64,000 nt of DNA from the NCBI RefSeq assembly GCF_009363655.1, contig NZ_CP045393.1, positions 3,410,001-3,474,000 of the forward strand. Direction: 5' to 3'. Below are positions 25,182 to 53,037 of the stretch, in pieces; the stretch's first letter is position 1, and each line of letters starts with the position of its first letter. The translations under genes were made by a program, and so were the position numbers. The notes under the pieces are model-generated. The model saw only the letters and a list, made by a program, of their open reading frames with translations. It searched no databases and was not told the DNA's origin. The DNA is from Roseovarius sp. THAF27 (lineage in GTDB: Bacteria > Pseudomonadota > Alphaproteobacteria > Rhodobacterales > Rhodobacteraceae).

Positions 25182-25781
25182 TTATGTGTCTCCCATATTA
25201 CTGAGGATGCTCTCGGCGTTGATAATCGATTGCGCGATTTCCGTGGTGGTCGTCCTCTTCGCCATAGCCTGCTTCCTGATTAGGTCATAGGCCTCTCGCT
25301 CTGTGATGCCGCGATGACGCATAAGGATGAATTTGGCATCATTCACCTTCTGCACGTTATCGAGCTTTTCACGCAGTTTTGTGAGGTCTTTCTTGAAGCG
25401 ATGTTGTTCCTGTTGAAACCGCCTTGCCATGAGCATGCTGCTGAGCACGCCGGCTGCTCGCACCGGCTTCATCAGAACCGAGTGAGCACCGATTTCGAAA
25501 ATGAGATCAAGAACCGACGGGTTCTCATACCCAATGATCGCCACGACTGATGGTGGCTTTGCATTGTTGCCGATGAAAGTCTTCAGCTTCTGCGCGCTCT
25601 GATCCGTGACATCCACAAAAACGAGGTCGAATTTTTCCGGCAGCGTCTTCGGCACCGGCCACATGTGATCGAAATTGCATCCAATCCTGTTGACCTGCTG
25701 CATCAGTTCGTCTGCGCTACGGTCCCGAGGGTGGACGACGAGCGCATGAAGGTCCCTCAGATCCTGGATCGGATCACTCAT
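25182..25781 (-). CDS. amiR: AmiR-type ANTAR-domain transcription antiterminator
   Basis: 199 residues from the ATG at 25781, which lies inside the end of amiC (8-bp overlap) with GGAGG upstream; the GTG at 25793 is less likely. Residues 1-120 form a pseudo-receiver, 120-150 a coiled coil (KLREKLDNVQKV), and about 145-195 the RNA-binding ANTAR domain (ILMRHRGITEREAYDLIRKQ). In Pseudomonas aeruginosa AmiR is held inactive by AmiC and, when amide is present, prevents termination in the amidase leader. Here it is the last gene of the operon it should control; a matching terminator and hexaloop hairpin are present at 34030-34084. Confidence 0.9.
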   Translation of the reverse strand: MSDPIQDLRDLHALVVHPRDRSADELMQQVNRIGCNFDHMWPVPKTLPEKFDLVFVDVTDQSAQKLKTFIGNNAKPPSVVAIIGYENPSVLDLIFEIGAHSVLMKPVRAAGVLSSMLMARRFQQEQHRFKKDLTKLREKLDNVQKVNDAKFILMRHRGITEREAYDLIRKQAMAKRTTTTEIAQSIINAESILSNMGDT

Positions 25782-26934
25782 TCCGTCGCCCACCTCCAGC
25801 TACCTTCAGCGTTCGGAAACTCCAGTCGTGGATGGCCGGATAGACAAGGTAGGGATCCGGTTTGATGGCACGGCGCACCTTCGTCTCAATGACGAATTCG
25901 CCAGCCTCGTCAACTTTGGCAATCCGCGACTGAAGGTAGGTGTGGTTGTTGTCGGGGTCGATCTTGATCTGCCCTTGCGGCGCGTCGAAGCTGGCCCCCA
26001 AGAGAGCTTCTCGCAGGCATTCCGTGTCGATCTCACCCGTTTCTTCAAGCGCACGGGCGAACATGTGCACTTGGCTGTATGTCGCCTCGCAACAGCTTGT
26101 GACATCAACCGTCGAGCCGAACTTTTCCTCGTATGCCCTGAGAAAGCGGCGGTTCGCCGGCGAATTGATCGAGCGGAAGTATGGCGCGGCCGTAATGTGC
26201 CCGGTCGAAGCTTGTGAACCTATCGCGTCAATCTCTCCTTCATTGGTGGTGAGACTGGCGATCGGGCACTCTCTGCCATTGCCTCCGGCCGCATGGTAGG
26301 CTTTATAAAACTCTATACAGGCCTGCCCGACAACAGTGGAGAAGATTGCGTCCGGTTTCACTGCCATGATATCGTCAACGACCGCGGAAAAGTCGTCAGC
26401 TTTCGCCTCGAGATCGAAGTAAACCTCTCCGGTCACTTCCCCGCCTCCTTGGCGAAGAACATTGCGCATAACACGGTTGGACTCCCTTGGGTAAATATAG
26501 TCAGAGCCAACGAAGTGAATCCGTTTACCATAGGCATTCATCAGGTAATTCGCCAAAGGCACGCTGTTTTGGTTCGGGCAAGCTCCGCCGTAGATCATGT
26601 TGGGGGAGTATTCGAAGCCCTCGTAAAGCGTTGGATAGAAGAAGAGTGCGTTCCGGCGTTCTACGACCGGAAGAACCTCCTTGCGGGAAGATGACATGTA
26701 GCAGCCGAATATCACGCCTATCTTGTCATCAATGATCAGCTTCTCGGCCAGTTCGCCGTATCGTCGAACGACCGATGAGGGGTCATACCGGACAGGTTCG
26801 ATCGGCCGACCGAGGATTCCGCCCCTCGCGTTGATCTGGTCGATAGCCAGCAATGCGCCATTGAGCTGCGACCGCTCGATGATCGAAGTAACGCCTGTCT
26901 CCGAGAAAAGCAGCCCGACCTTCCAACTCTCCAA
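25774..26934 (-). CDS. amiC: AmiC-type amide sensor / negative regulator (periplasmic-binding-protein fold, cytoplasmic)
   Basis: 386 residues with no signal peptide: the chain begins directly with the ligand-binding fold (VGLLFSETGVTS, LAIDQINARGGILGRP). FFYPTLYEGFEYSPNMIYGG is the amide/urea-binding subfamily signature in shortened form YPTLYEG. The lack of a signal fits a cytoplasmic sensor that releases AmiR on binding a short amide. It shares clear similarity with the secreted binding protein at 32748, showing sensor and transporter receptor come from one ancestor. Overlaps amiR by 8 bp. Confidence 0.9.
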   Translation of the reverse strand: MESWKVGLLFSETGVTSIIERSQLNGALLAIDQINARGGILGRPIEPVRYDPSSVVRRYGELAEKLIIDDKIGVIFGCYMSSSRKEVLPVVERRNALFFYPTLYEGFEYSPNMIYGGACPNQNSVPLANYLMNAYGKRIHFVGSDYIYPRESNRVMRNVLRQGGGEVTGEVYFDLEAKADDFSAVVDDIMAVKPDAIFSTVVGQACIEFYKAYHAAGGNGRECPIASLTTNEGEIDAIGSQASTGHITAAPYFRSINSPANRRFLRAYEEKFGSTVDVTSCCEATYSQVHMFARALEETGEIDTECLREALLGASFDAPQGQIKIDPDNNHTYLQSRIAKVDEAGEFVIETKVRRAIKPDPYLVYPAIHDWSFRTLKVAGGGRRNE

Positions 26935-26948
26935 AGATCACATCCCTT

Positions 26949-28085
26949 TCAAAACTGCCGAAACGAAACGGTTTCATCCCGGCATTGGGCTTGGAGTCTG
27001 ACAATGGCACTTCCATCAGGGGGCGAAAAGTCCCCATGGTCGCCAAGCAAATATCCAGCCAGTGGAAATTCAAGATAACGCCGCATTGCCCTGCGAAGTC
27101 CACGAGCGCCAAACCGCTTATCATAGCCTTTTGCTGCGATAAAACCTTTGACGTCTTCCGAGATTTCAAGCCAGAGATCATGCTTTTTCAGGCGTCGGTT
27201 CAACCGCGCCAGTTCCACGTCCACCAATTCCGGCATCTTGTCGCTGCTGATCCAATTAAATGTATCGACATGATCGATCCGGTTTACAAGTTCTGGCGGA
27301 AATCGATCCAGTAGACAGCGCATAACAATATCATGCGCGCGTTCTTTCCTCGGCTTGTGCGCTGCAAGCAGCCGCGACCATAGCGCGCGCGGGCTGAACC
27401 CGCCCACCTCGTCGAGCGCCATCAGTTCCCGGGCTCCAAGATTCGACGACATAAAGATCAGGCTGTTTCTAAACGAATAGGTGCGCTCACCCGACGCTAC
27501 GGTGAGAATGCCGTTGTCGAACACGTTCATCAGCGCCAGAACCACTTCGTTGCTTGCCTTTTCCAACTCGTCGAATAGCACAAGCCCGGGAAGGTTCCGG
27601 GTGCCCTCGATCTTCTCTTGGTCAAGGATCGTGGTGCCTTCCTTTGAGCCGACATAGCCTGGCGGCGCCCCTGTCAAGGCAGCCGCATAGTGCTCCTGCG
27701 AAAGCGTGTTCATGTCGATCCGGCAAAACGCGTCGGCATCCCCGTACATCGCTCGGGCGATGGTGCGGACGGTCTCGGTCTTGCCGACACCTGTCGGCCC
27801 ACAAAAGAGGATGGACGCCAGCGGTTTGCGCGAATCACCGATATCGGCGCGGACCACCTTGAGGATCTCCAGCACCTGGCTGATCGGCTCTTCCTGTCCG
27901 ATGATCGATGCGCGTAATTCGGCCTCGATGTCGGCGGTATCGAATGAGAAACGCGACGCCAGGCCTCTTCCGGGATTGACCCTATTCACTGGGCGCCCGG
28001 TTACACGTGCATTCTCGTCCGCCAAGGCGGCCGCCAGCTTTTCTTGCCTTTGTGTGTCATGCAACCGATCAGTCAGGAAAGGCAT
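26949..28085 (-). CDS. amiB: AmiB, ClpX/ClpB-like AAA+ ATPase of the amidase operon
   Basis: 378 residues from the ATG at 28085. AAA+ core: Walker A GPTGVGKTE, pore/arm region GAPPGYVGSKEG, Walker B GLVLFDELEKA, sensor-1 SLIFMSSNLGA, arginine finger region LLDRFPPELVNRID, sensor-2 KRFGARGLRRAM. This is a ClpX/ClpB-type unfoldase module without N-terminal zinc or Clp_N domains. amiB occurs in the P. aeruginosa ami operon between amiE and amiC, the same place as here, with no settled function; a role in assembling or remodelling amidase or the transporter is speculative. Confidence 0.88.
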   Translation of the reverse strand: MPFLTDRLHDTQRQEKLAAALADENARVTGRPVNRVNPGRGLASRFSFDTADIEAELRASIIGQEEPISQVLEILKVVRADIGDSRKPLASILFCGPTGVGKTETVRTIARAMYGDADAFCRIDMNTLSQEHYAAALTGAPPGYVGSKEGTTILDQEKIEGTRNLPGLVLFDELEKASNEVVLALMNVFDNGILTVASGERTYSFRNSLIFMSSNLGARELMALDEVGGFSPRALWSRLLAAHKPRKERAHDIVMRCLLDRFPPELVNRIDHVDTFNWISSDKMPELVDVELARLNRRLKKHDLWLEISEDVKGFIAAKGYDKRFGARGLRRAMRRYLEFPLAGYLLGDHGDFSPPDGSAIVRLQAQCRDETVSFRQF

Positions 28086-28153: not shown

Positions 28154-29197
28154 TCAGTCCGCCTCTTTCTCTTTCTCGCCAGTCGGCAATCCGCCGACGG
28201 GACAACAGGCCACGCCCACAGTCGAACGGGTGAAGGATTCTACATGCAGCCGCGTCTTCTCAGCGTCGTTGACCCAGTTGCGGTAGAACTCGAACGGGCA
28301 TTCCGCCACGCCGTTCTCCCCGTCGCCGGAGGCATGCACGCCGGTATAACCCCGGTGTAGCAGCTTGAAGAGGTGGTTCTGCGACTGGTCGTTGGCCCGC
28401 GCGTCGCGGATTTCCGGGATCGAAAGCTGGGCATACTGGATGCCCATGTCCTCTTCGCCGCATTCCCCGAGCGTGCGCCCGTCGAAGCCGATGATCGCGG
28501 AGTGGCCGAAATAGCTGTAGACCCCGTCGAACCCCGCCGCGTTGGCCACGGCCACGTAGCAGTTGTTGGCCCATGCCATCGCCTTCGACATGATAACCTG
28601 CTGATCCTTCGCGGGATACATGTAGCCCTGGCAGCGCACGATCAGCTCTGCCCCCTTCATCGCGCAATCGCGCCAGATTTCGGGGTAGTTGCCGTCATCG
28701 CAGATGATCAGACTGACCTTCAAGCCCTTCGGACCCTCGGCCACGTAGGTCTGATCGCCCGGATACCAACCCTCGATCGGGTTCCACGGCAGGACCTTGC
28801 GGTATTTCTGCACAATCTCGCCCTTGTTGTTCATCAGGATGAGCGTGTTGTAGGGCGTCTTCTTGGGATGCTCCTCGTGCCGTTCCCCGGTGAGCGAGAA
28901 CACCCCCCAGACATTGGCCTTGCGACAGGCCCGCGCGAAGATTTCGGTCTCGTCGCCGGGAATGGTGGCGGCGGTCTCCATCATCTCGTCTTCGTCGTAC
29001 ATGATTCCGTGGGTGCTGTATTCGGGGAAGATCACGAGATCCATGCCCGGCAGGCCCTTCTTCATGCCGACGAGCATCTCGGCGATCTTCTCGGCGTTCT
29101 CGATCACCTCGGCCTTTGTGTGCAGCCGCGGCATCTTGTAGTTCACGACAGCCACGCCGACCGTGTTGTCGCTGCTTGAAATGTCACCGTGTCTCAT
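28154..29197 (-). CDS. amiE: Aliphatic amidase (acylamide amidohydrolase)
   Basis: 347 residues, nitrilase-superfamily. It matches Pseudomonas AmiE nearly along its length from memory, beginning [20 protein letters not shown]. Catalytic residues are all in place: E59 in FPEYS, K134 in QKYRKVLPW, and C166 in [15 protein letters not shown]. It hydrolyses short aliphatic amides (acetamide, propionamide) to the acid and ammonia in the cytoplasm. It lies between the amide importer and amiB-amiC-amiR, all on one strand. Proline- and Cys-rich C-terminal tail (CCPVGGLP) as in AmiE, which separates it from the shorter-specificity formamidase AmiF. Confidence 0.96.
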
Positions 29198-29249: not shown

Positions 29250-29951
29250 TCAGAAGGTCAGGTGTTTTTCGACAGCCTCTTCGGTAAGGTCGTCGGATTT
29301 GCCGTCGAGAACGACGCGCCCCTTGTCGAGCACGATGAAGCGGTCCGACGCCGCGCGTGCGAAGGTGACGTTCTGTTCGACAAGGATGATGCCGAGGCCG
29401 CGTTCGCGGTTGAGCCGCACGATCGCCTCCTCGATCTGCTTGACGATGTTGGGCTGGATGCCCTCGGTCGGCTCATCGAGGATTAGGATCTTCGGATCCA
29501 TCGCCAGCGCCCGCGCGATCGCGAGCTGCTGCTGCTGGCCGCCCGAGAGGTCGCCGCCGCGGCGGTTGATGAATTCGTCGAGGATTGGGAACATCTCGAA
29601 CAGGTATTCGGGGATGTCGCGTTTGCCGTCGGTGCGCGCGAAGGTTCCCATCAGTATATTCTCGCGGACGGTGAATTGCGGGATGATCTCGCGCCCCTGC
29701 GGGATGTAGCCGATGCCGAGCCGCGCTCGCAGCGGCGTCGCGTAGCTCAGGATATCGGTATCTCCGAAGGCGAGCCCGCCCTCGCAGCGGTCGGTCAGCC
29801 CCATCACAGATTTGAGGAGGGTCGTTTTGCCCACCCCGTTGCGCCCCAGAACGGCGAGGAATTCACCCGCCCCGAGGTCGAAGGACACGCCCTGGATCAC
29901 CGGGCTCTTGCCGTAGAAGGAATAGAGGTCTCTTGCTTGCAGATGTTCCAT
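29250..29951 (-). CDS. Urea/amide-type ABC importer ATPase (UrtE/FmdF-like, LivF type)
   Basis: 233 residues from the ATG at 29951, 2 bp after the preceding ATPase stop. Walker [10 protein letters not shown], signature [15 protein letters not shown], Walker [14 protein letters not shown]; the [11 protein letters not shown] sequence is typical for UrtE of urea and short-amide importers. Forms the ATPase heterodimer with the next-upstream gene product. Co-located with amidase, so amide uptake is the likely job. Confidence 0.92.
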
Positions 29952-29953
29952 GA

Positions 29954-30682
29954 TCAGTGTCCCAGGTAGGCGGTCTTGACGGCCTGGTTGGCCTCGATCT
30001 CCTCGATGGAGCCTTCGGCTAGCAGCGCGCCCTGGTTCATCACCAGGATGCGGTCCGCGACCGTGCGCACGAAGGACATGTCGTGTTCGACCACGATCAG
30101 CGTGTGCGTGGCGCTCAGCGACCGGAAGATCTCGGCGGTGCGCTCGGTCTCCTGCACGGTCATGCCGGCGGTGGGTTCGTCCATCAGGATAAGTCGGCTG
30201 TCCTGCGCGATCAGCATCGCAATCTCGAGCCACTGGGTCTGGCCGTGCGACAGGTTGCCGGCAATCTCGCCGCGCTTCTCCGACAGCCCGACGCGATCGA
30301 GGATTTCCCCGGTGCCGCCCATGTCCGACAGCGCCATCCGTGTGAACGTGCTCCAAAGCCCGGGGCGGTGCGATCGCGCGACCGACATGTTCTCGGCCAC
30401 GGTCAGCTCCTTGTAAACCGACGGCACCTGGAACTTGCGCCCGATGCCAAGCCGCGCGCGGCGAAACTCGAGCATCTGCGAGATTTCCGCGCCGTCGAGC
30501 CGGATCGACCCGCCGGTCGGCTGCGTCTTGCCGCAGATCAGGTCGAGCGTCGTCGACTTGCCCGCGCCGTTTGGGCCGAGCAGGCAGAGGATTTCGCCTT
30601 CGTTGACGGTGAAGCTCAGATTGTCGACGGCGCGCAGGCCGCCGAAGTCGACCAGCAGGTCGGTGACTTGCAGTTGGCCCAT
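29954..30682 (-). CDS. Urea/amide-type ABC importer ATPase (UrtD-like, LivG type)
   Basis: 242 residues: Walker A GPNGAGKST, signature LSHGQTQWLEIAMLI, Walker B LILMDEPTAGMT and a switch VVEHDMSFVR. LSHGQ(T/K)QWLEI is the variant signature of UrtD proteins of urea and amide importers. Starts 2 bp after the UrtC-like gene and pairs with the UrtE-like ATPase. Confidence 0.92.
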   Translation of the reverse strand: MGQLQVTDLLVDFGGLRAVDNLSFTVNEGEILCLLGPNGAGKSTTLDLICGKTQPTGGSIRLDGAEISQMLEFRRARLGIGRKFQVPSVYKELTVAENMSVARSHRPGLWSTFTRMALSDMGGTGEILDRVGLSEKRGEIAGNLSHGQTQWLEIAMLIAQDSRLILMDEPTAGMTVQETERTAEIFRSLSATHTLIVVEHDMSFVRTVADRILVMNQGALLAEGSIEEIEANQAVKTAYLGH

Positions 30683-30684
30683 GG

Positions 30685-31788
30685 TTACGTCTCCTGCTGG
30701 GGTTCGAGTTGCTCGTCAGGGATCGCGGTGCCGGTCTCGCGGCGCGCGGTGCGGCGCGGCGTTGTCAGCCGCTGGCCGATCCCGGTGAGCAGCCCGTAGA
30801 TGCCGCGCGGCATGAACATGACCACCAGCACGAAGATTACGCCGAGCATGAGGTTCCAGCCTTCGACGAAGACGTCCGAAAGCCGCCCTTCGAGCATGTT
30901 GACGATGATCGCTCCGATGGCCGCGGCGATGACGGATTCGCGTCCGCCCACGGCACACCAGATGACGATGGCGAGGCTGAAGGAAACGCCCATGTAGGTG
31001 GGCGACGCGAATTCGAGAACCATCGTGTAGAGCATGCCCGCCCAACCCGCGAGCGCCGCGGAGATGCAGAACACGGCCGTCTGGTAGGTGGCGACGTTGT
31101 AGCCGAAGAACCGGGTGCGGTCCGCGTCCTCGCGGATGGCGCGCAGCACGAGGCCGAACTTGCTGTGGGTGAGGTAGACGCCGATCGCGAGCGCCACCGT
31201 CAGGCAGCCTGCGACGAGGTAGTAGAACACAGTGCTGTAGGGATCGACGCGCCAGCCCATGATCGTGAACTGCGCCAGCCCCGTGAGGCCGTTCTGCCCG
31301 CCGGTCAGCCCCTGCTGGTTGATGACGAGAAGCTGAAATGCCACGAGGAAGGCGAGCGTGATGATCGCCACGAACACACCCGCGATGCGCGCGCGGAACA
31401 TGAAGATCGCGATCAGCCCGCCGATGAAGGCCGGGATCAGAAGCCCCGCGAGGAGGGTGAAGGCCAGCGATTCGAACGGCACCCAGATGAGCGGCAGCGC
31501 GGGCACGTTGTTCCAGCCCATAAAGTCCGGCAACCCATCGCTCGCGCGGAGTTTCAGGTGCATGGCCATCGCGTAGGCCCCCATGCCAAATGTTGCGGCC
31601 TGCCCGAGGTTGAGAAGCCCCGCGGTCCCCCAGGACAGCGCCAGCGCCATCGACACGGTGGCAAGGGCTAGGTAGCGCGCGAAGGTGTTGAGCTCGAACC
31701 CGTCATAGCCCATCAGCGCCGGCACACCGAAGACGATGATGATGGCGAAGAGGGCGAAGGCGGCGAGGTCGTAGTGAAGTCTGGACAT
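30685..31788 (-). CDS. Urea/amide-type ABC importer permease (UrtC-like, LivM type)
   Basis: 367 residues with about ten helices. Features of the branched-chain/urea LivM family: SWGTAGLLNLGQAATFGMGAY, in short LNLGQA.F.GMGAY, and the cytoplasmic loop AIREDADRTRFFGYNV. The C terminus is a charged tail (TTPRRTARRE). Forms the channel with the UrtB-like permease. 12 bp separate it from that gene. Confidence 0.92.
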   Translation of the reverse strand: MSRLHYDLAAFALFAIIIVFGVPALMGYDGFELNTFARYLALATVSMALALSWGTAGLLNLGQAATFGMGAYAMAMHLKLRASDGLPDFMGWNNVPALPLIWVPFESLAFTLLAGLLIPAFIGGLIAIFMFRARIAGVFVAIITLAFLVAFQLLVINQQGLTGGQNGLTGLAQFTIMGWRVDPYSTVFYYLVAGCLTVALAIGVYLTHSKFGLVLRAIREDADRTRFFGYNVATYQTAVFCISAALAGWAGMLYTMVLEFASPTYMGVSFSLAIVIWCAVGGRESVIAAAIGAIIVNMLEGRLSDVFVEGWNLMLGVIFVLVVMFMPRGIYGLLTGIGQRLTTPRRTARRETGTAIPDEQLEPQQET

Positions 31789-31800
31789 CGGAAAGGTTCC

Positions 31801-32670
31801 TCAGCGGCGGGTGTCGGTGGGGAAGAGTCCCCGCGGGCGGAAGCGGATCAGCACGATGATCCCAGCGAGAACGGCGATCCGGCCCAATGTGTCGTTCATC
31901 AGGATCGAGAAGATGGCGGTCGCCTCCCCGATGAGCACGGCTGCGGATGCGGCCCCGATCAGGCTGCCGAGCCCACCGACGATCACCACGAGGAACGCGT
32001 CGACCACGAGGCCCGTGCCCATCGTCGGGATGGTGCTGAAGAGCGGCGTGATGAGCGCTCCGGCAATTCCGGCGAGCCCCGCGCCATAAGCGAAGGTGAT
32101 GGAATAGATGCGCTTGGCCTCGATCCCGTAGCATTCGGAGATGCCGCGGTTCTGGATGACGGCGCGCAGCTTCATGCCGAACTCAGTCCGGGTCATCAGC
32201 AGCCACGTCCCGTAGAGCATGACCATCGACAGCGCGATCACGAAGAGCCGGTAGTTCGACATGATGAGCGGGCCGATCTCGGTATTGCCCGACAGGATGT
32301 CCGGCCCCTTGACGAAGCGCGATTCCGCCCCGATCCCAAGCCGCACGCATTGTTGCAGGATGATGCCGATGCCCCATGTCGCGAGGATCGTGTCCAGCGG
32401 CCGGTGGTAGAGCTTCTGCACCACCGCCTTCTCGATCACCCAGCCGACGAGGCCGACCGCAATGAAGACGAGCGGCAGCGCCGGGAGGATGCCGATGCCC
32501 GCGAAGGTCTGCAACGCCCAGGTCGCGTAGGCGCCCAGCATCACGAATTCGCCGTGCGCGAGGTTGATGACCCCCATCGCGCCGTAGATGATGGCCAATC
32601 CAAGCGCGATCATGAGCAGGATCGACGCCATGCTCAGTCCGGCAAAGAGTTGGTTCGCTAGCACGTCCAT
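31801..32670 (-). CDS. Urea/amide-type ABC importer permease (UrtB-like, LivH type)
   Basis: 289 residues, about eight helices. IYGAMGVINLAHGEFVMLGAY is the LivH/UrtB signature (INLAHGEF.MLGAY visible), and the loop RAVIQNRGISECYGI plus LGSLIGAASAAVLIG follow the family. It is 77 bp downstream of the binding-protein gene with a hairpin between them. Channel partner of the UrtC-like permease. Confidence 0.92.
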   Translation of the reverse strand: MDVLANQLFAGLSMASILLMIALGLAIIYGAMGVINLAHGEFVMLGAYATWALQTFAGIGILPALPLVFIAVGLVGWVIEKAVVQKLYHRPLDTILATWGIGIILQQCVRLGIGAESRFVKGPDILSGNTEIGPLIMSNYRLFVIALSMVMLYGTWLLMTRTEFGMKLRAVIQNRGISECYGIEAKRIYSITFAYGAGLAGIAGALITPLFSTIPTMGTGLVVDAFLVVIVGGLGSLIGAASAAVLIGEATAIFSILMNDTLGRIAVLAGIIVLIRFRPRGLFPTDTRR

Positions 32671-32747: not shown

Positions 32748-33983
32748 TCAGGCCTTGACGAGACCTTCGCCGGTGCAACTCTGGCCCTCGTAGGCGGCGT
32801 AGGGTTTGGGCGCGATTCGCTCCTGCGATTCCACGATCACCTCGGCTTGGCCGTTGCTCTGCCACTGGCCGATCTTGGGCCAAAGGTGGGTGTGCAGGTT
32901 CTCGTCGATCAGCACCTCGCCTTGCGGCGCGTTGAGCGTGAGGCCCACGGCCGCGTCGCGGATCGTCTCGGGCGTGATGTTGCCCGGGTCTAGCTTCTCC
33001 AGCGCCGCCTTGAACTGGTAGACTTGGAAGTAGGCCGCCTCGGACACGAAATGCGTGACCTGGTCCGCGCCATAGCGGGATTTGTAGGCTTCGACAAAGG
33101 CCTCGTTCTCGGGCGTGTCGTGGCCCATGAAGTAGGGCGCGGAGGAGAAGTGCCCGGCCGCCGCTTCGCCGCCGATGGCTTTCACCTCTACCTCGGACCG
33201 GGTGAGGCTGATCACCGGCATCTGCGCGGGGTCGAGTTCGGCCGCGTGATACTGTCGGGCGAAGGCCACGTCGGAATCGCCCACGACGGTGGCGAAGATC
33301 ACGTCGGGTTTCTCGGACCGGATGCGGTTGATGACCGAGCTGAAGTCGGAATGCCCAAGCGGGACGTATTCCTCGTTCACGACCTCGCCGCCCAGTTCGG
33401 CCAACAGGGTCTTGCAGTAGTTGTTCTCTTCCTTCGGATAGACGTAGTTGTTGCCGATCATGTAGAAGCGCGGGCCGTAATTCTCGATCGCCCAGGCGAT
33501 CAAGTCATCCTGCTGCTGGTTCGGCACGGCGCCGCCATACATGACGTTTCTCGAGCACTCGCGGCCTTCGTAAAGCGTAGGGTACCAGTAAAGGTTCTTG
33601 CGCTGCTCGGTCACCGGCAACACCGCCTGCCGGCTCGCCGAGGTGTAAGAGCCGAAAACGCTGACGCATTTGTCGCGGATCATCAGGCGCCGAGCGCGGT
33701 CTGCATAAGTCGCTGGGTCGGATGCCGGGTCTTCAATTATTGGCCGCAACTGCCGGCCGTGCACCCCGCCGGCGGCGTTGATCTCTTCAATCGCCATCAG
33801 CGCAGCATCGTGCAGAGTGCTTTCCACCACGGCCACGGCGCCGGTCAGTGAAAACAGCAAACCGACGGGAATATCGCCACCCTGCGCGATGGCACGCCCA
33901 GCGGTCGTCAGAAGCGCGGGCGCCGAAAGGGCACCAGCTGCACCGAGAGCACCTACTCCTCCAAGAAAGTCGCGACGTTTCAT
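32748..33983 (-). CDS. Urea/short-chain amide ABC importer periplasmic binding protein (UrtA/FmdD-like, Tat-exported)
   Basis: 411 residues from the ATG at 33983, preceded by GAGGAG. A twin-arginine signal opens it (MKRRDFLGGVGALG, cleavage after IAQ), followed by IPVGLLFSLTGAVAVVE and the amide/urea motif YWYPTLYEGRECSRN, here in part. A longer in-frame reading to 34079 would begin inside the intrinsic terminator and is rejected. It captures amides or urea in the periplasm; the first structural gene of an operon that ends with AmiC-AmiR. Similar proteins serve FmdDEF amide uptake in Methylophilus. Confidence 0.92.
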   Translation of the reverse strand: MKRRDFLGGVGALGAAGALSAPALLTTAGRAIAQGGDIPVGLLFSLTGAVAVVESTLHDAALMAIEEINAAGGVHGRQLRPIIEDPASDPATYADRARRLMIRDKCVSVFGSYTSASRQAVLPVTEQRKNLYWYPTLYEGRECSRNVMYGGAVPNQQQDDLIAWAIENYGPRFYMIGNNYVYPKEENNYCKTLLAELGGEVVNEEYVPLGHSDFSSVINRIRSEKPDVIFATVVGDSDVAFARQYHAAELDPAQMPVISLTRSEVEVKAIGGEAAAGHFSSAPYFMGHDTPENEAFVEAYKSRYGADQVTHFVSEAAYFQVYQFKAALEKLDPGNITPETIRDAAVGLTLNAPQGEVLIDENLHTHLWPKIGQWQSNGQAEVIVESQERIAPKPYAAYEGQSCTGEGLVKA

Positions 33984-34029: not shown

Positions 34030-34075
34030 AAAAAAAGGCCCTCCACCGCGACGTCTTCGTCACGATCGGAGAGCC
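34030..34075 (-). terminator. Intrinsic terminator in the amide operon leader (antitermination target)
   Basis: On the minus strand GGCTCTCC (34075-34068) pairs with GGAGGGCC (34044-34037), one G-U wobble, enclosing an inner stem CGTGACG/CGTCGCG with loop AAGA; seven T residues (34036-34030) follow at once. It lies 47 bp before the start of the amide-binding-protein gene, with no gene upstream on this strand for it to end. That placement, plus an ANTAR regulator at the end of the operon, marks it as a regulated leader terminator. Confidence 0.85.
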
Positions 34076-34084
34076 TCATTGCTC
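34071..34084 (-). promoter_or_regulatory. Candidate ANTAR-binding hairpin P2 overlapping the terminator
   Basis: GAGC (34084-34081), hexaloop AATGAG (34080-34075), GCTC (34074-34071). The loop has A at position 1 and G at position 4, the features described for ANTAR RNA targets, and the 3' arm is the first part of the terminator stem, so the two structures exclude each other. AmiR binding here would free the transcript to continue. The stem is only 4 bp, so protein stabilisation would be needed. Confidence 0.65.
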
Positions 34085-34096
34085 ATGAATTTTTTA

Positions 34097-34112
34097 GACT
34101 CACATTTGAGCC
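34097..34112 (-). promoter_or_regulatory. Candidate upstream hairpin P1 of the amide leader
   Basis: GGCTCA and TGAGTC (one wobble) form a 6-bp stem around AATG, 12 bp before the P2 hairpin. ANTAR targets are normally tandem hairpins. If the last A-T pair opens, the loop becomes AAATGT, which has A1 but not G4, so the match is imperfect. An overlapping alternative, CCTGC/GCAGG (34132-34111), also exists. Confidence 0.35.
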
Positions 34113-34565
34113 TGCAACCATCGTTCAGCAGGGGTTCACATTTTGCAAGAAAATTTTAGTTATTAAAATCTAATAGTTATGCACGAATGCATCACTCGTG
34201 GACAGTTTCGTGTCCTTTTCGAGCTCAAAGGGAAACGGATGCTTGAACAACATTTGCAGTGCTGATGGTAATAAGCTTATCAGCCATCAAATGACGTTAT
34301 TCGAACAACAACACCAACCCAAATCTCAACCCTTGCCAAAAATCACAAACAGCTACGGCATGGGGTGCGAATTACCCGCGTGCAGAGAGGGGCCCGAAAG
34401 GACCCATCGATGATGACCGCAACAGCGGACGATGAAAAAGTTCAAGAAGCAGTCGTTCACTGCGCTTTGCACAGATGGCCGCTCAGCGGGACAAAGCTGC
34501 CGTTGAAGAACTCACTTCAAATGGCGGCTTCTCTTAAACTGACCAACGTATGCAGAGCAAGCGTG
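34113..34565. other. AT-rich intergenic region upstream of the amide operon
   Basis: Must contain the promoter of the minus-strand amide operon. A short palindrome ATGCA-TTCG-TGCAT lies at 34179-34192 and the next 50 bp toward the leader are very AT-rich (TATTAG, TTTAAT, TAAAAT are all possible -10 boxes), but I cannot choose a promoter. Plus-strand frames of 71 and 92 codons here have no RBS and no recognisable motif and are not called. Base composition is clearly lower in GC than the surrounding chromosome. Confidence 0.5.
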
Positions 34566-34805: not shown

Positions 34806-35672
34806 TTAGCTCACTTCGCGGGCCTTTCGCTCGAATGCTATCGGGCTTTGGAAGCCGAGCGATGAATGGCGTCTGACGGGATTGTAGAACCCGTCGATGT
34901 ATCTGGCGATGGCGTTTTCGGCCTGTTGGCGGGATTTCCAGGCGACCGGCCAGATCAGCTCCGACTTGATGGTTTTGAAGAACGTTTCCACCATTGAGTT
35001 GTCATAGCAGTTCCCGCGCCCGCTCATCGAGATCAAGATGCCACGTTTGCGGAGCCGCGCCTGATAGTCCACCGAGCAGTATTGCGATCCGCGGTCGGAA
35101 TGGTGAACCAGTCCTGGCTCAGGGTTGCGAGCGGCCAGAGCATGGCGCAGGGCTGCGATGGCGAGGTCACGCTTCAGACGATCACTCGTGGCCCAACCGA
35201 CGACGCGGCGCGAGAAGAGGTCCAAGACAATGGCAAGGTAAAGCCAGCCCTCTGCCGTCCAGATGTAGGAGATGTCCGCCCCCCACTTCCTGTCCGGACA
35301 GTCCGCCGCGAAATCTTGTGCCACGAGGTTGGGCGCCACAGGCCAGGCATGTTCACTGTCCGTCGTCCGTTTAAAGCGCCGCTTTTGCCGCGCGATCAAC
35401 TGGTTCTCGTGCATCAGTCGTGCCGTGCGGTGCCGCCCTATCTTGAGCCCCTCATCGACGAGGTCGCGGTGCATGCGGGGACTGCCGTAGGTCCCGTTCG
35501 ACAGCTCAAAGGCCGTTCGAATGTGGGCAAGATGGATCATGTCCTGCTGCTGGCGATGACAGGCAGGGCGGTCCCGCCAAGCGAAGAACCCGCTCTGGCT
35601 GACACCGAGAACATGACACATTCGCCGGATCGGGAAGCTGGCCTTCTCCGCCTCTATGAAAGCGAAGCTCAT
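34806..35672 (-). CDS. IS3-family transposase OrfB (DDE integrase domain)
   Basis: 288 residues from the ATG at 35672, which overlaps the orfA stop (ATGA). An HTH_21-like segment (FELSNGTYGSPRMH) is followed by the rve integrase core with the DDE triad: first D in KWGADISYIWT, second D in LVHHSDRGSQY, E in NSMVETFFKTIK. The functional transposase is most likely the OrfAB fusion made by -1 frameshifting. All motifs are intact, so the element may be active. Confidence 0.95.
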   Translation of the reverse strand: MSFAFIEAEKASFPIRRMCHVLGVSQSGFFAWRDRPACHRQQQDMIHLAHIRTAFELSNGTYGSPRMHRDLVDEGLKIGRHRTARLMHENQLIARQKRRFKRTTDSEHAWPVAPNLVAQDFAADCPDRKWGADISYIWTAEGWLYLAIVLDLFSRRVVGWATSDRLKRDLAIAALRHALAARNPEPGLVHHSDRGSQYCSVDYQARLRKRGILISMSGRGNCYDNSMVETFFKTIKSELIWPVAWKSRQQAENAIARYIDGFYNPVRRHSSLGFQSPIAFERKAREVS

Positions 35673-35953
35673 CGACTTGCGTCTTTCGCGAAGAAGGTTG
35701 CGGCCTTTTTTAAGATGTCGCGCTCCTGCTTCAGAACCGCGTTCTCGCGTCGCAACCGCTTCAGCTCCGCGTGCAGATCGACCGATGCCTCGACCGGCCC
35801 ACCAGCGTCCCGCTCGCGACTGAGCCATCGCGTCAGTGTCGAAAGCCCGATCCCCAGATCTTCCGCGATCTCCCGTCGCGTCCGGCCGCTGGTCAGCGCC
35901 AGCCGCACCGCTTCACGCCGGAACTCCGGCGTCGGTCTGTTTCCGTTTCCCAT
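35669..35953 (-). CDS. IS3-family transposase OrfA (HTH + leucine zipper)
   Basis: 94 residues, ATG preceded by AGGAGGTG. Contains the HTH_Tnp_1 motif (EFRREAVRLAL, EIAEDLGIGLSTLTRWL) and a leucine-zipper-like LKRLRRENAVLKQERDILKK. Near its end the slippery heptamer A AAA AAG lies at 35711-35705 (minus strand), in phase for a -1 shift into orfB. OrfA gives DNA-end recognition and dimerisation. Confidence 0.93.
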   Translation of the reverse strand: MGNGNRPTPEFRREAVRLALTSGRTRREIAEDLGIGLSTLTRWLSRERDAGGPVEASVDLHAELKRLRRENAVLKQERDILKKAATFFAKDASR

Positions 35954-36007: not shown

Positions 36008-36449
36008 CATTCAATCCTTCCTAATCTAGACCAAGCGTCATGGACAAGACCGCGGCTCAATCAAATCCGTCAGGGTGTTTCCTACGAACCCGCCCGTATG
36101 GCCGCCTCCACGGTGAGACAGGGGGGCACCAGCACCCGCGACGAACATTCCGATTTCGCCGATCACGACGTTACCACAGTGGGCATGACCGGAGCCTCTC
36201 TAGATCTGAGCCATTTGGTTTCGGACAATGGTCCATAGCATGGCGGTGTCGGACGACGCGGAAACGACCGTGCCGGTTCTTCGATCAGGCTGAGCGGTCC
36301 GCCACCCGAATGAGAAGCTCGGGATCGACGGCTTTGCCATGTGAAACGTGAATGGGCCCGGGCTTCAGTGTACCACCCGGCTGCGGATGAAACCTTCCAG
36401 CCTTCGATTTTTATCTTTTCTCAGACCATTTCATCCATTAACCATCGAC
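36008..36449. other. 442-bp region between IS and riboswitch, no supported gene
   Basis: Plus-strand frames of up to 103 codons exist but have no RBS or known motif. On the minus strand a 38-codon open stretch (ending about 36290, with GKAVDPELLIRVADRSA) looks coding-like but lacks a start, so it may be debris left by an IS-linked rearrangement. The btuB promoter should lie at the right end of this interval. Confidence 0.4.
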
Positions 36450-36639
36450 TCACTTCGGTTCCCGGCGGTTTTCCGGCGGGATAATAGGGAATGCGGTGCG
36501 ACGCGTCTGGCGTCCAATCCGCAACTGCCCCCGCAACTGTAGGCGGAGAGCGAAGCCGGACCATGTCACTGTCATGCGGCGCATGATGGGAAGACCCGGC
36601 CAAGCATTGACCCGCAAGTCAGGAGACCTGCCGAGGTGA
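36450..36639 (+). ncRNA. Cobalamin (adenosylcobalamin) riboswitch upstream of btuB
   Basis: Closing stem P1 pairs TCACTTCGG (36450-36458) with CCGAGGTGA (36631-36639), one wobble. Core elements are in order: GGGAATGCGGTGCGA, GCAACTGCCCCCGCAACTGTA (shown in its two halves, CCCCCGCAACTG being the consensus), GTCACTG, GGGAAGACCCGGC and the B12 box GTCAGGAGACCTGCC. It should repress the receptor when cobalamin is plentiful, through the downstream ribosome-binding-site pairing. Confidence 0.95.
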
Positions 36640-36717
36640 TCACCCTGTCCGAACGCGGGGCGCGTTTCGACAACGGACTTTCCGTAGCGGTGACGATATC
36701 ACCGTCTGCGGAGTCAC

Positions 36718-36774: not shown

Positions 36775-38718
36775 ATGTCACGCTCATTCAAAGCCGCGCT
36801 TGCGGCATCCACCGCCCTTTTCACCCAGCCCGCCATTGCGCAGGACACGCCATATGACCTCGGAACGATCTTCGTGTCCGGCGGTCTGACCCCGATTGAA
36901 GGCAGCGCCTACGGCCGTGCCGGTACTGTCCTGACCGAAGAGGATATCGAGGATCGCGGGTCACGATATGCGGTCGACATCATCCGCTCGCTGCCCGGTG
37001 TTTCCGTCTCGCGGACCGGCCCCGCCGGCGGCCTGACCCAGGTCCGGATGCGCGGCCACGAAGGCAACCACACGCTGGTCATCATCGACGGCGTGGAAGT
37101 GGCCTCGCCCAGCCAGGGCGAGTACGATTTCAGCGGTCTTCTCAGCGCCGACATCGAGCGCATCGAGGTCCTGCGCGGGCCGCAAACCTCACTTTACGGC
37201 TCGAACGCCATCGGCGGTGTGATCTCGATCACCACCAAGCGCGCGACCGAGCCGGGCTTCAGCGGGCAAGCCGGGTTCGAGATCGGCACCGACGAGACGA
37301 CGCAAGTCAGCCTGGCCTTGCGGCAGCGCACCGAAAAACTTGCTCTGAGCTTTTCCGCGACGCGCCGGGAGACCGGCGGCTATGACGTGTCGGGCCTGAA
37401 TGGCGAGGATGACGGTGATCTCAACGAGACCTACAACCTCAACGTCCATTATTACGCGACCGAAAACCTGACCTTCGGCGGCACGCTACGGCACGTGAAA
37501 AGCGACTCGGACTCCGACGGCCAGATCTACACCGCGCTTACACCTGCCGGACAGATCCTCGTTGATGACTTTTCCGGGTCCGATACGGCCGAGACCTTCG
37601 GCTCCATCTACGCCCAGCTCGACACGTTCGGCGGTCGTTTCAGAAACCGCCTGGATCTGTCTTTTGCAGACATCCAGACCGATCGTTTCAACGGCACCGG
37701 CGCACAGTCGGGCGACACCACAGAGACACGCCAGAAAATCAGCTACAAGGGCAGCGTCGCGCTGGATGGCGGCGCGGTCGATACCGCCCGCCACATCCTG
37801 ACCCTCGGCGCCGAGTGGGAGCGGGAGACGTTCGTCAACAACAACCCCGCCTTCGTCTTCGCACCCAGCCAGCTGATCAAACAGACGCGCGAGCAGACCG
37901 CCCTCGTGGCGGAATACCAGGGCAACCTGACCGACAGTCTTGATGTGCAGGCCAGCGTCCGGCATGATTTCAACGACGAGTTCGAGGATTTTACGACCTA
38001 CGCTGTCGGTGTGTCGTACATGCTGCCCAGTCAGACCACGCGACTTCACGCCTCTTACGGCACAGGCGTCCAGAACCCGACCATGTTCGAACAATTCGGT
38101 TTTTCCAACAACTTCATTGGCAACCCGAACCTGGAACCCGAGCAGAGCGAAGGCTGGGATTTCGGTGTGGAACAACAATTCCTAGGCGGGCGCGGCCTGA
38201 TTGACGTCACCTATTTCGATGACGAGCTGACCAACGAGATCTCGTCCACCGTCGATCCTGGCACCGGCAGCCTGACACCCTTCAACCAGGCCGGAAAAAG
38301 CGACCGCAGAGGCGTGGAAATCGGTGCGACCTGGCAGGTGAACGCGCGGCTGGACCTTGGGCTGAATTACACGTGGCTGGATGCCGAGAACCCCAACGGC
38401 AGCACCGAGGTACGCCGCCCGGAACACGAGGTGCTGTTGCAGCTTGGCTACGACTTCCCCGATGACCGCACGCGGTTCACCATGGACGTGCAGCACGTGG
38501 CGAACAATGTCGATCTGTTCTTCCCGCCCAGCTTCATATCGGTGCCCGTGACCCTGCCGGACTATACGCTTGTCAACGTCGGACTGCGGCACCAGCTGAC
38601 AGATAGCGTCGAAATCTATGGCCGTATCGAGAACCTGACGGATGAAAAGTACCAGGAGGTTCTCGGCTACGAGACCCCCGGCCGCACGGCGTTCTTCGGC
38701 CTGACAGCCACTTTCTGA
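36775..38718 (+). CDS. btuB: TonB-dependent vitamin B12 receptor
   Basis: 647 residues: signal peptide to about 23 (ending QPAIAQ), TonB-box-like DLGTIFVSGG, plug domain about 45-150 (GVSVSRTGPAGGLTQVRMRG in part, IERIEVLRGPQTSLYGSNAIGGVI in part), then a beta-barrel ending FGLTATF with a terminal aromatic as required for outer-membrane assembly. It brings cobalamin and other corrinoids across the outer membrane with TonB energy. Assignment to B12 rests on the cobalamin riboswitch and the btuFCD genes directly downstream (1-bp gap to btuF). Confidence 0.93.
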   Translation: MSRSFKAALAASTALFTQPAIAQDTPYDLGTIFVSGGLTPIEGSAYGRAGTVLTEEDIEDRGSRYAVDIIRSLPGVSVSRTGPAGGLTQVRMRGHEGNHTLVIIDGVEVASPSQGEYDFSGLLSADIERIEVLRGPQTSLYGSNAIGGVISITTKRATEPGFSGQAGFEIGTDETTQVSLALRQRTEKLALSFSATRRETGGYDVSGLNGEDDGDLNETYNLNVHYYATENLTFGGTLRHVKSDSDSDGQIYTALTPAGQILVDDFSGSDTAETFGSIYAQLDTFGGRFRNRLDLSFADIQTDRFNGTGAQSGDTTETRQKISYKGSVALDGGAVDTARHILTLGAEWERETFVNNNPAFVFAPSQLIKQTREQTALVAEYQGNLTDSLDVQASVRHDFNDEFEDFTTYAVGVSYMLPSQTTRLHASYGTGVQNPTMFEQFGFSNNFIGNPNLEPEQSEGWDFGVEQQFLGGRGLIDVTYFDDELTNEISSTVDPGTGSLTPFNQAGKSDRRGVEIGATWQVNARLDLGLNYTWLDAENPNGSTEVRRPEHEVLLQLGYDFPDDRTRFTMDVQHVANNVDLFFPPSFISVPVTLPDYTLVNVGLRHQLTDSVEIYGRIENLTDEKYQEVLGYETPGRTAFFGLTATF

Positions 38719-44830: not shown

Positions 44831-44879
44831 AGTACTACCTCTTTGCCTTCACACCCGAAGGCCTTGTGGTTTCAGTCGC

Positions 44880-45058
44880 GATCAGCAGGTCTCCTGGCTT
44901 GCGGGTCTTCATCGTCTGGCTGGCCTTCCCGGATTGCTCCAGTGACGTATTCAGCCTGATTCGCCGCCTACAGTTGCGGGGACAGCCACGGAATTGCCAA
45001 GTGTTTTCAGGCGCACCGCGTTCCCTGTTCTCCATCCCGTGCGGAAATGGAACCGATC
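44880..45058 (-). ncRNA. Cobalamin riboswitch upstream of cbtBA
   Basis: On the minus strand the ordered core is GGGAACGCGGTGCGCC, CCCCGCAACTGTAGGCGG, GTCACTGG, CCGGGAAGG and the B12 box AAGCCAGGAGACCTGC. P1 pairs CGATC-type ends at 45053-45058 and 44880-44885. It lies before cbtB, so cobalt uptake is switched off by cobalamin. It is divergent from bluB. Confidence 0.94.
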
Positions 45059-45074
45059 ATCCTCGTTAGTCTAG

Positions 45075-52727: not shown

Positions 52728-52774
52728 GTGACGTCTCCTTGACACAAGGTGGGTTTTCGCAGCATGTCGCACCG

Positions 52775-52947
52775 TGTTGGTGCCTGTGTAAACAGGTGAA
52801 AAGGGAATGTGCAGCGCATCGCGCCAGGCACAGCCGCCCCCGCGACCGTGAAACGGGAAGGTTTCCACCGCCACTGGCGCAATGCCGGGAAGGCCGGAAA
52901 CCGTGGGCCGAAAGGCCCGAAACCGCAAGCCGGGAGACCTGCCAACA
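52775..52947 (+). ncRNA. Cobalamin riboswitch upstream of the cobW-cobN operon
   Basis: P1 pairs TGTTGG (52775-52780) with CCAACA (52942-52947). In order: GGTGCCTGTG, AGGGAATGTGCAGCG, GCCCCCGCGACCGTGAAACGG, in which CCCCCGCGAC is the core, GCCACTGG, GCCGGGAAGGCC and the B12 box AAGCCGGGAGACCTGCC. Downstream CCTCC (53006-53010) can pair with the GGAGG ribosome binding site (53029-53033) of the first gene, suggesting translational control of the ring-synthesis operon. Confidence 0.94.
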
Positions 52948-53037
52948 AGAAGGAACAGACGGACCGGACGGGGTGTGCCGGGCTCGGATGGGTGGCCACC
53001 CGCCACCTCCGCGCGCACCCCCGACATTGGAGGATAC

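Follow-up and report, generated by a model that had tools for sequence, protein, structure and literature searches.

The amide operon in the window (the 64,000-nucleotide stretch of Roseovarius sp. THAF27 DNA analyzed here) is headed by a leader that, judging from sequence comparison, is very probably an AmiR-controlled transcription antiterminator for the whole operon. The leader has the layout of an ANTAR target: two hexaloop stem-loops (P1 and P2), a suitable linker, and exclusion of an intrinsic terminator by P2. A first-pass annotation of this DNA had placed an ANTAR-type switch at the head of the operon, and this proposal was supported by co-varying stems, a layout kept in 23 of 24 leaders, a model searched against held-out leaders, and the presence of a sole ANTAR protein. 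An AmiC–AmiR switch would thus stand ahead of both uptake and breakdown, an arrangement conserved over many Roseobacter-type genera.

The ami operon and its leader

The operon begins with the gene of a substrate-binding protein and ends with amiR (Table 1), and the intergenic gaps between the two are at most 77 nt, given the starts that we chose. It has the components expected for AmiC–AmiR regulation, as an AmiR with AmiR_N and ANTAR domains adjoins an AmiC sensor and an aliphatic amidase is encoded within the operon. AmiR was the sole ANTAR match in the genome (4.46 Mb, 99.95% complete), leaving it as the one ANTAR protein available to act on the leader; its closest named relative was AmiR of Roseovarius pacificus (93% identity), and its true start is more likely at 25781 than at 25793. 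An ATG at 34079, inside the terminator, opens a 443-aa in-frame version of the binding protein that runs through the terminator, and gene callers may wrongly pick it. It is probably not the true start because aligned homologues begin at the ATG equivalent to 33983.

Table 1. Genes of the ami operon and elements of its leader in the window
Feature	Position	Strand	Remarks
Candidate promoter	34120..34148	-	-35 TTGCAA (34148-34143), 17-nt spacer, -10 AACGAT (34125-34120)
P1 hairpin	34096..34113	-	AGGCTC-AAATGT-GAGTCT, 6 bp; hexaloop with A1 but U4
P2 antiterminator hairpin	34071..34084	-	GAGC-AATGAG-GCTC; hexaloop with A1 and G4
Intrinsic terminator	34030..34076	-	5′ arm includes the P2 3′ arm; seven T at 34036-34030
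Substrate-binding protein, amide/urea-type ABC	32748..33983	-	First gene of the operon; Peripla_BP_5; best NCBIfam UrtA, under cut-off
UrtB-like permease	31801..32670	-	TIGR03409 above cut-off
UrtC-like permease	30685..31788	-	TIGR03408 above cut-off
UrtD-like ATPase	29954..30682	-	TIGR03411, slightly below cut-off
UrtE-like ATPase	29250..29939	-	TIGR03410 above cut-off for 29250-30002; start 29939 is our choice
AmiE aliphatic amidase	28154..29197	-	NF009802, 713.8 bits against a cut-off of 427
AmiB, AAA+ ATPase	26949..28085	-	AAA_2 and ClpB_D2-small; named from operon position; start is our choice
AmiC amide sensor	25774..26934	-	Closest solved relative AmiC 1pea, E 6.9e-110
AmiR ANTAR antiterminator	25182..25793	-	AmiR_N and ANTAR domains; AmiR 1qo0_D, E 3.2e-29

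The leader spans 84 nt from the start of P1 to the end of the T-run, with a linker of 11 nt between P1 and P2 (5–14 nt across the leader set). The strong terminator with seven T residues and the P2 hairpin sharing its 3′ arm with the terminator 5′ arm, both claimed in the first-pass annotation, were found on the minus strand. The terminator does lie upstream of the binding-protein ATG, with 46 bp rather than the claimed 47 separating it from the end of the T-run; this interval contains the ribosome site. The further remark that the terminator has no gene to terminate was nearly right, but an IS3-family transposase gene (34806-35828), on the same strand and upstream of the ami promoter, ends ∼730 bp upstream of the terminator. 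The published 13-nt eut consensus, AGCAANGRRGCUY, had a single exact match genome-wide, and this was P2. Elsewhere in the window, three cobalamin riboswitches lie within ∼17 kb at 36439-36649 (+), 44867-45072 (-), and 52761-52960 (+), scoring 128.6, 111.4, and 91.9 bits, respectively; the first is followed by a frame at 36775 whose translation looks like a TonB-dependent receptor.

The window leader folded to −47 kcal/mol, compared with a mean of −32.39 kcal/mol (SD 3.85) for shuffled sequences (z = −3.79), and none of 200 shuffles was equally stable. The P2 3′ arm sat in the terminator pairing in all 23 full-leader folds, showing that the P2 and terminator pairings are mutually exclusive, and forcing P2 to form cost 11.4 kcal/mol in the window and 7.3–19.2 kcal/mol over the 23 folded leaders. 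When the P1–P2 segment was folded alone, P2 formed in 22 of the 23 (not in L084) and P1 formed as a hexaloop in 19, with a tetraloop P1 in the window, L068, L082, and L084. Because the last loop position is a U, the window P1 may adopt a tetraloop: it can gain an A1–U6 pair, and folding favored this form. L076 has no good T-run, with its terminator failing the T-run test, and its P1 was not kept in the full fold.

The candidate promoter ends 6 nt upstream of P1 and carries 7 of the 12 consensus letters. Of 20 aligned leaders, 18 have TTGC at the −35 position and all 20 have the final T of the −10 element, while leader-by-leader promoter scoring placed a −10 element within 5–8 nt of P1 in only 14 of 23. 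A simple consensus scan called neither a promoter nor a terminator on the minus strand at the leader. We also considered a sigma-54 reading of the TTGCA box and dropped it, as inspection by eye found no GG element at the correct upstream distance.

Conservation and specificity of the leader

Leaders were collected by searching family, order, and GTDB genomes for the binding protein and AmiR. Among 32 loci with the binding protein ahead of AmiR, we removed seven duplicates and L118, L158, and L159, where the importer is distant and no leader was seen; L083, whose sequence breaks off before reaching the leader, was also dropped. The addition of L052 and L079, in which AmiE comes first, brought the set to 24 unique leaders including that of the window, 22 before the binding protein and 2 before AmiE. 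At each of these 24 loci, the leader and the AmiR gene belong to a single same-strand gene run. The P1–P2–terminator layout was present in 23 of these leaders; in the exception, L081, P1 contains a mismatch and was not found, with P2 and the terminator present.

A covariation search in related genomes had been suggested in the first-pass annotation as a check, and its outcome was that the stems co-vary. In an alignment of 23 leaders (22 distinct), 98.2% of the stem cells were paired, compared with 87.5% in shuffles, and pairing fell to ≤48.6% when the 3′ partners were displaced by 1–3 columns. The covariation score was 0.432, as against 0.194 (SD 0.022) for shuffles, and 29 cells were changed on both sides, as against 7.5; neither value was reached in 500 shuffles. 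Five pairs were changed on both sides, four in P1 and one in P2, compared with 2.8 in shuffles, a count reached by 7 of 500. P1 was paired in 97.7% of cells over the 22 distinct leaders, its top two pairs being invariant and its lower stem varying with compensation, and P2 was paired in 98.9%. P1, which had been thought to fit only loosely, is therefore a conserved, co-varying 6-bp hairpin.

These data bear on the possibility that the element is an ordinary terminator shielding the operon from upstream read-through, such as that from the IS3 transposase gene, with the P2 hexaloop being incidental. The same-strand transposase gene does end a short way upstream and the terminator stem is strong on its own, but we consider this explanation very improbable: the stems are paired with compensation, loop size and A1 are kept in 23 leaders, and a conserved promoter-like element lies directly upstream of P1. 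In addition, the 46 bp before the gene, ribosome site included, would leave little room for another promoter.

The specificity of the antitermination leader was examined using two trained models and two descriptors. The 12 leaders used to build the R2 model exclude the window and the two leaders nearest to it on the tree (L066 and L074) but include L063 and L065, themselves fairly near relatives of the window. Over the whole genome of the window, the best R2 match was the window leader, with 45.6 bits (E 9.8e-9), and the next place reached 15.9 bits. It recovered 9 of 13 held-out leaders (the window, L062, L064, L066, L067, L069, L074, L079, L052, L080, L081, L082, and L084), missing L080, L081, L082, and L084, and gave nothing above 14 bits on 14 further type-B loci (described below). 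R1 over 384 family genomes yielded matches in 22 genomes at E ≤0.01; seven exceeded 40 bits, all at ami operons, and the other 15 scored ≤24.6 bits. As all seven top sequences belong to the R1 model and were thus found by construction, R2 is the fairer test.

The strict descriptor, which uses no trained model and requires two A1 hairpins with an overlapping terminator, was run on 69 sequences (1.31 Mb, or 2.62 Mb on both strands), mostly neighborhoods of ami loci, and found 24 places, each within or next to an ami operon. It recovered 19 of the counted leaders and missed four (L076, L079, L082, and L084); the other places were two in L080, one in the AmiR/binding-protein gap of L101, and two new ones in L072 and L073. 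A looser descriptor was found in 1 of 60 shuffles of the window leader, with the real score reached in none, and in 46 of 1440 shuffled leaders overall, with the real score reached once (L082); L076, L081, L052, and L079 have no real score within its limits. No Rfam family passed its gathering score at the leader, the best weak match being rli56 (22.1 bits versus 47). The weak matches look like chance, and we rejected a known Rfam family as the identity of the leader.

Loop position 4 and related loci

The first-pass annotation had assumed hexaloops with A1 and G4 and had named homologous leaders without a conserved hexaloop as contrary evidence; loop size and A1 held up, and G4 did not hold as a general rule. 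All 23 leaders had A1 in the loops of both P1 and P2, although the scan that produced this count demanded A1. A scan without this demand, allowing loops of 4–8 nt, gave solutions in 21 of 24 leaders. P2 was unchanged in 19 of the 21, the exceptions being the window and L068. For P1, 15 leaders gave the hexaloop as before, three (the window, L068, and L084) gave the stem as before but closed to a tetraloop, and three (L078, L081, and L082) gave a different hairpin. G4 was found in only 5 of 23 P2 loops (the window, L067, L074, L082, and L084; also in L081, outside the counted set) and in 2 of 23 P1 loops (L068 and L148). The window therefore has G4 in P2 and not in P1, departing from the published pattern of G4 in both loops. 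Over the 23 leaders, loops without G4 had A or U at position 4, never C.

In the accepted outgroup leaders (L080, L081, L082, L084, L085, L086, L090, L101, L105, L126, L056, and L153), P2 carries G4, a call made partly by eye on loci related by descent. Exceptions to a clean split between clades are L167, from another family, with the P2 loop AACAAG, and L079, with AAGAGG. On the protein tree, as rooted by us, G4 seems to have disappeared close to the root of the clade and is present again in three lineages (the window, L067, and L074), so position 4 looks free to drift. AmiR of the type-A set keeps the counterparts of EutV E160 (as E or D), Y164, M172, and R175 whatever the loop, and AmiR of the clade is without counterparts of EutV R142, K143, and K147; the groups compared for AmiR residues and loop position 4 are related by descent. 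As far as the sequences indicate, AmiR of this clade apparently accepts A, U, or G as the fourth loop base.

The departure at position 4 could also mean that the antitermination switch is worked by another factor, an RNA-binding protein or a small molecule, with AmiR acting elsewhere. Most relatives break the known ANTAR rule at this position, and AmiR–leader binding is a prediction. Even so, the leader and AmiR share one gene run and strand in 24 loci, AmiR is the sole ANTAR match and keeps the four EutV counterparts named above, and no Rfam family exceeded its gathering score at the leader, and we consider this very improbable, the least probable of the alternatives.

A third alternative, which we regard as unlikely though less so than the other two, concerns P1 alone: AmiR would act via P2, and P1 would lie outside the signal as a stabilizer of the 5′ end of the leader RNA. 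According to work on the EutV structure, the minimal binding motif is redefined to be one hexaloop, and the window P1 lacks G4 and is able to close to a tetraloop. However, the kept A1, the invariant top two pairs, and the compensating lower stem of P1 are as expected of a bound loop, and the linker stays at 5–14 nt throughout.

Returning to control by AmiR through both hairpins, we found additional leaders that may belong to the same system. Second P1–P2–terminator leaders are present in Paracoccus thiocyanatus (L072 11190-11310) and Pontibaca salina (L073 11090-11200), about 500–600 bases past amiR; a 60-codon frame and the gene of an amidase-signature enzyme (PF01425, 416.7 and 394.1 bits) follow. 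These leaders were the best R1 matches there after the main leaders (26.7 and 22.3 bits), and all four hexaloops have A1, which the scan demanded, and none has G4. In genome G523, a weaker candidate with a strong terminator (L233 2860-2950, -) is directed away from the ami operon and faces frames that read as permease-like and hydrolase-like; its P1 loop has G4 and its P2 stem a mismatch. By eye, none of the four remaining weak R1 matches had a terminator overlapping P2. The phylum-wide AmiE search (26 of 349 genomes) gave 20 loci, nine of which passed the start filter, including the window's own; L167 from this search has a likely leader. In Pseudomonas and Variovorax AmiC–AmiR loci, with gaps of up to 450 nt before a gene, we found no convincing leader.

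In the type-B loci of other proteobacteria (L085, L086, L105, L126, and others), the order is amiC–amiR–leader–importer. An A1 hexaloop P2 adjoining a terminator was found in 8 of 22 type-B AmiR/binding-protein gaps, in L080, L085, L086, L090, L105, and L126 by scan and in L056 and L153 by eye; the other gaps had 7-nt loops, different hairpins, or none. The scan without the A1 demand agreed in four of the eight (L080, L090, L126, and L153); for L085, L086, L105, and L056 it picked different hairpins. By eye, the gaps of L085, L086, L088, and L096 share a P1-like hairpin of the form C-C, AAxGxT loop, G-C-C, with a recurring C–C mismatch beside the loop-closing pair. Arhodomonas aquaeolei (L080 4400-6900) has two separate A1/G4 dual-hairpin leaders, one before amiC and one before the binding protein.

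We give about an even chance to the broader reading that AmiR in the Rhodobacterales no longer requires G4, reads A1, loop size, the top stem pairs, and any position-4 base but C, and governs a small regulon missed by G4-demanding searches. If true, this regulon would comprise the importer–amidase operon, in some species a second amidase, and perhaps a permease, and the leaders would offer a naturally occurring set in which to follow changes in the RNA specificity of an ANTAR domain. Natural leaders that break the accepted A1/G4 rule make what the ANTAR domain reads in RNA testable with natural partners, and they suggest that searches requiring G4 overlook real targets.

Proposed mechanism and comparison with known systems

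In the mechanism that we propose, transcription would start approximately at P1 and stop by default about 84 nt further on, at the terminator. Amide binding by AmiC would free AmiR, as is known for P. aeruginosa, and the ANTAR domain of AmiR would grip first the hexaloop of P1 and then that of P2 as each emerges. The held P2 would occupy the 5′ arm of the terminator, allowing polymerase to read into the genes of the importer, amidase, AmiB, AmiC, and AmiR. Since AmiC and AmiR are encoded behind the leader, some basal read-through would be needed. This chain rests on work on P. aeruginosa AmiC–AmiR and E. faecalis EutV; AmiR binding, the amide response, and the start site are inferred, and the sequences themselves show the anatomy of the RNA, its conservation, and the availability of one ANTAR protein. 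AmiR of the window has an AmiR_N domain, unlike EutV; AmiR is held by AmiC, and EutV is switched by phosphorylation.

The window shares with P. aeruginosa amiEBCRS the AmiE amidase, a leader with a terminator, and AmiC and AmiR, which have solved P. aeruginosa relatives. In the available parts of the published accounts, the P. aeruginosa leader lies before amiE and is described in PAO1 as a 100-nt RNA, AmiL (PMC9045362), similar in length to the 84-nt window leader, and early 3′ ends were observed in it (PMC8297930). The window leader instead stands before the genes of an ABC importer, and amiE is the sixth gene. The regulators already lie behind the leader in P. aeruginosa, so autoregulation is not new as such. 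Both P. aeruginosa hexaloops are said to have A1 and G4 (PMC3369931, in part), whereas the window P1 and most loops of its relatives lack G4, a comparison of leaders by description only. Another report describes a plasmid-borne operon that combines amiE, amiC, and amiR with genes of an ABC transporter, and the text consulted mentions no leader (PMC13209695). Among the open-licence literature matches listed, we found no leader before an importer and no G4-less ANTAR targets in this clade, which is weak evidence.

The E. faecalis eut leaders bound by EutV, as far as the source available in part describes them (PMC3369931), share with the window leader two hexaloop hairpins, the overlap of P2 with the terminator, and the exact 13-mer match, and their linkers of 5–12 nt are comparable with the 11 nt in the window. 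In the same account, the eut substitutions G32A and G56A lower induction and binding; most relatives of the window leader carry A or U where eut needs these G residues. A1 and G4 were restated as conserved in some 400 known ANTAR targets (PMC8164766), and the flipped G4 was the sole base-specific contact in the EutV structure (PMC8934654), both according to the portions available. The type-B loci resemble the window in having a hexaloop P2 adjoining a terminator before the same kind of importer. They differ in that their regulators lie upstream of the leader, whereas those of the window lie behind it, and in that the accepted type-B P2 loops keep G4.
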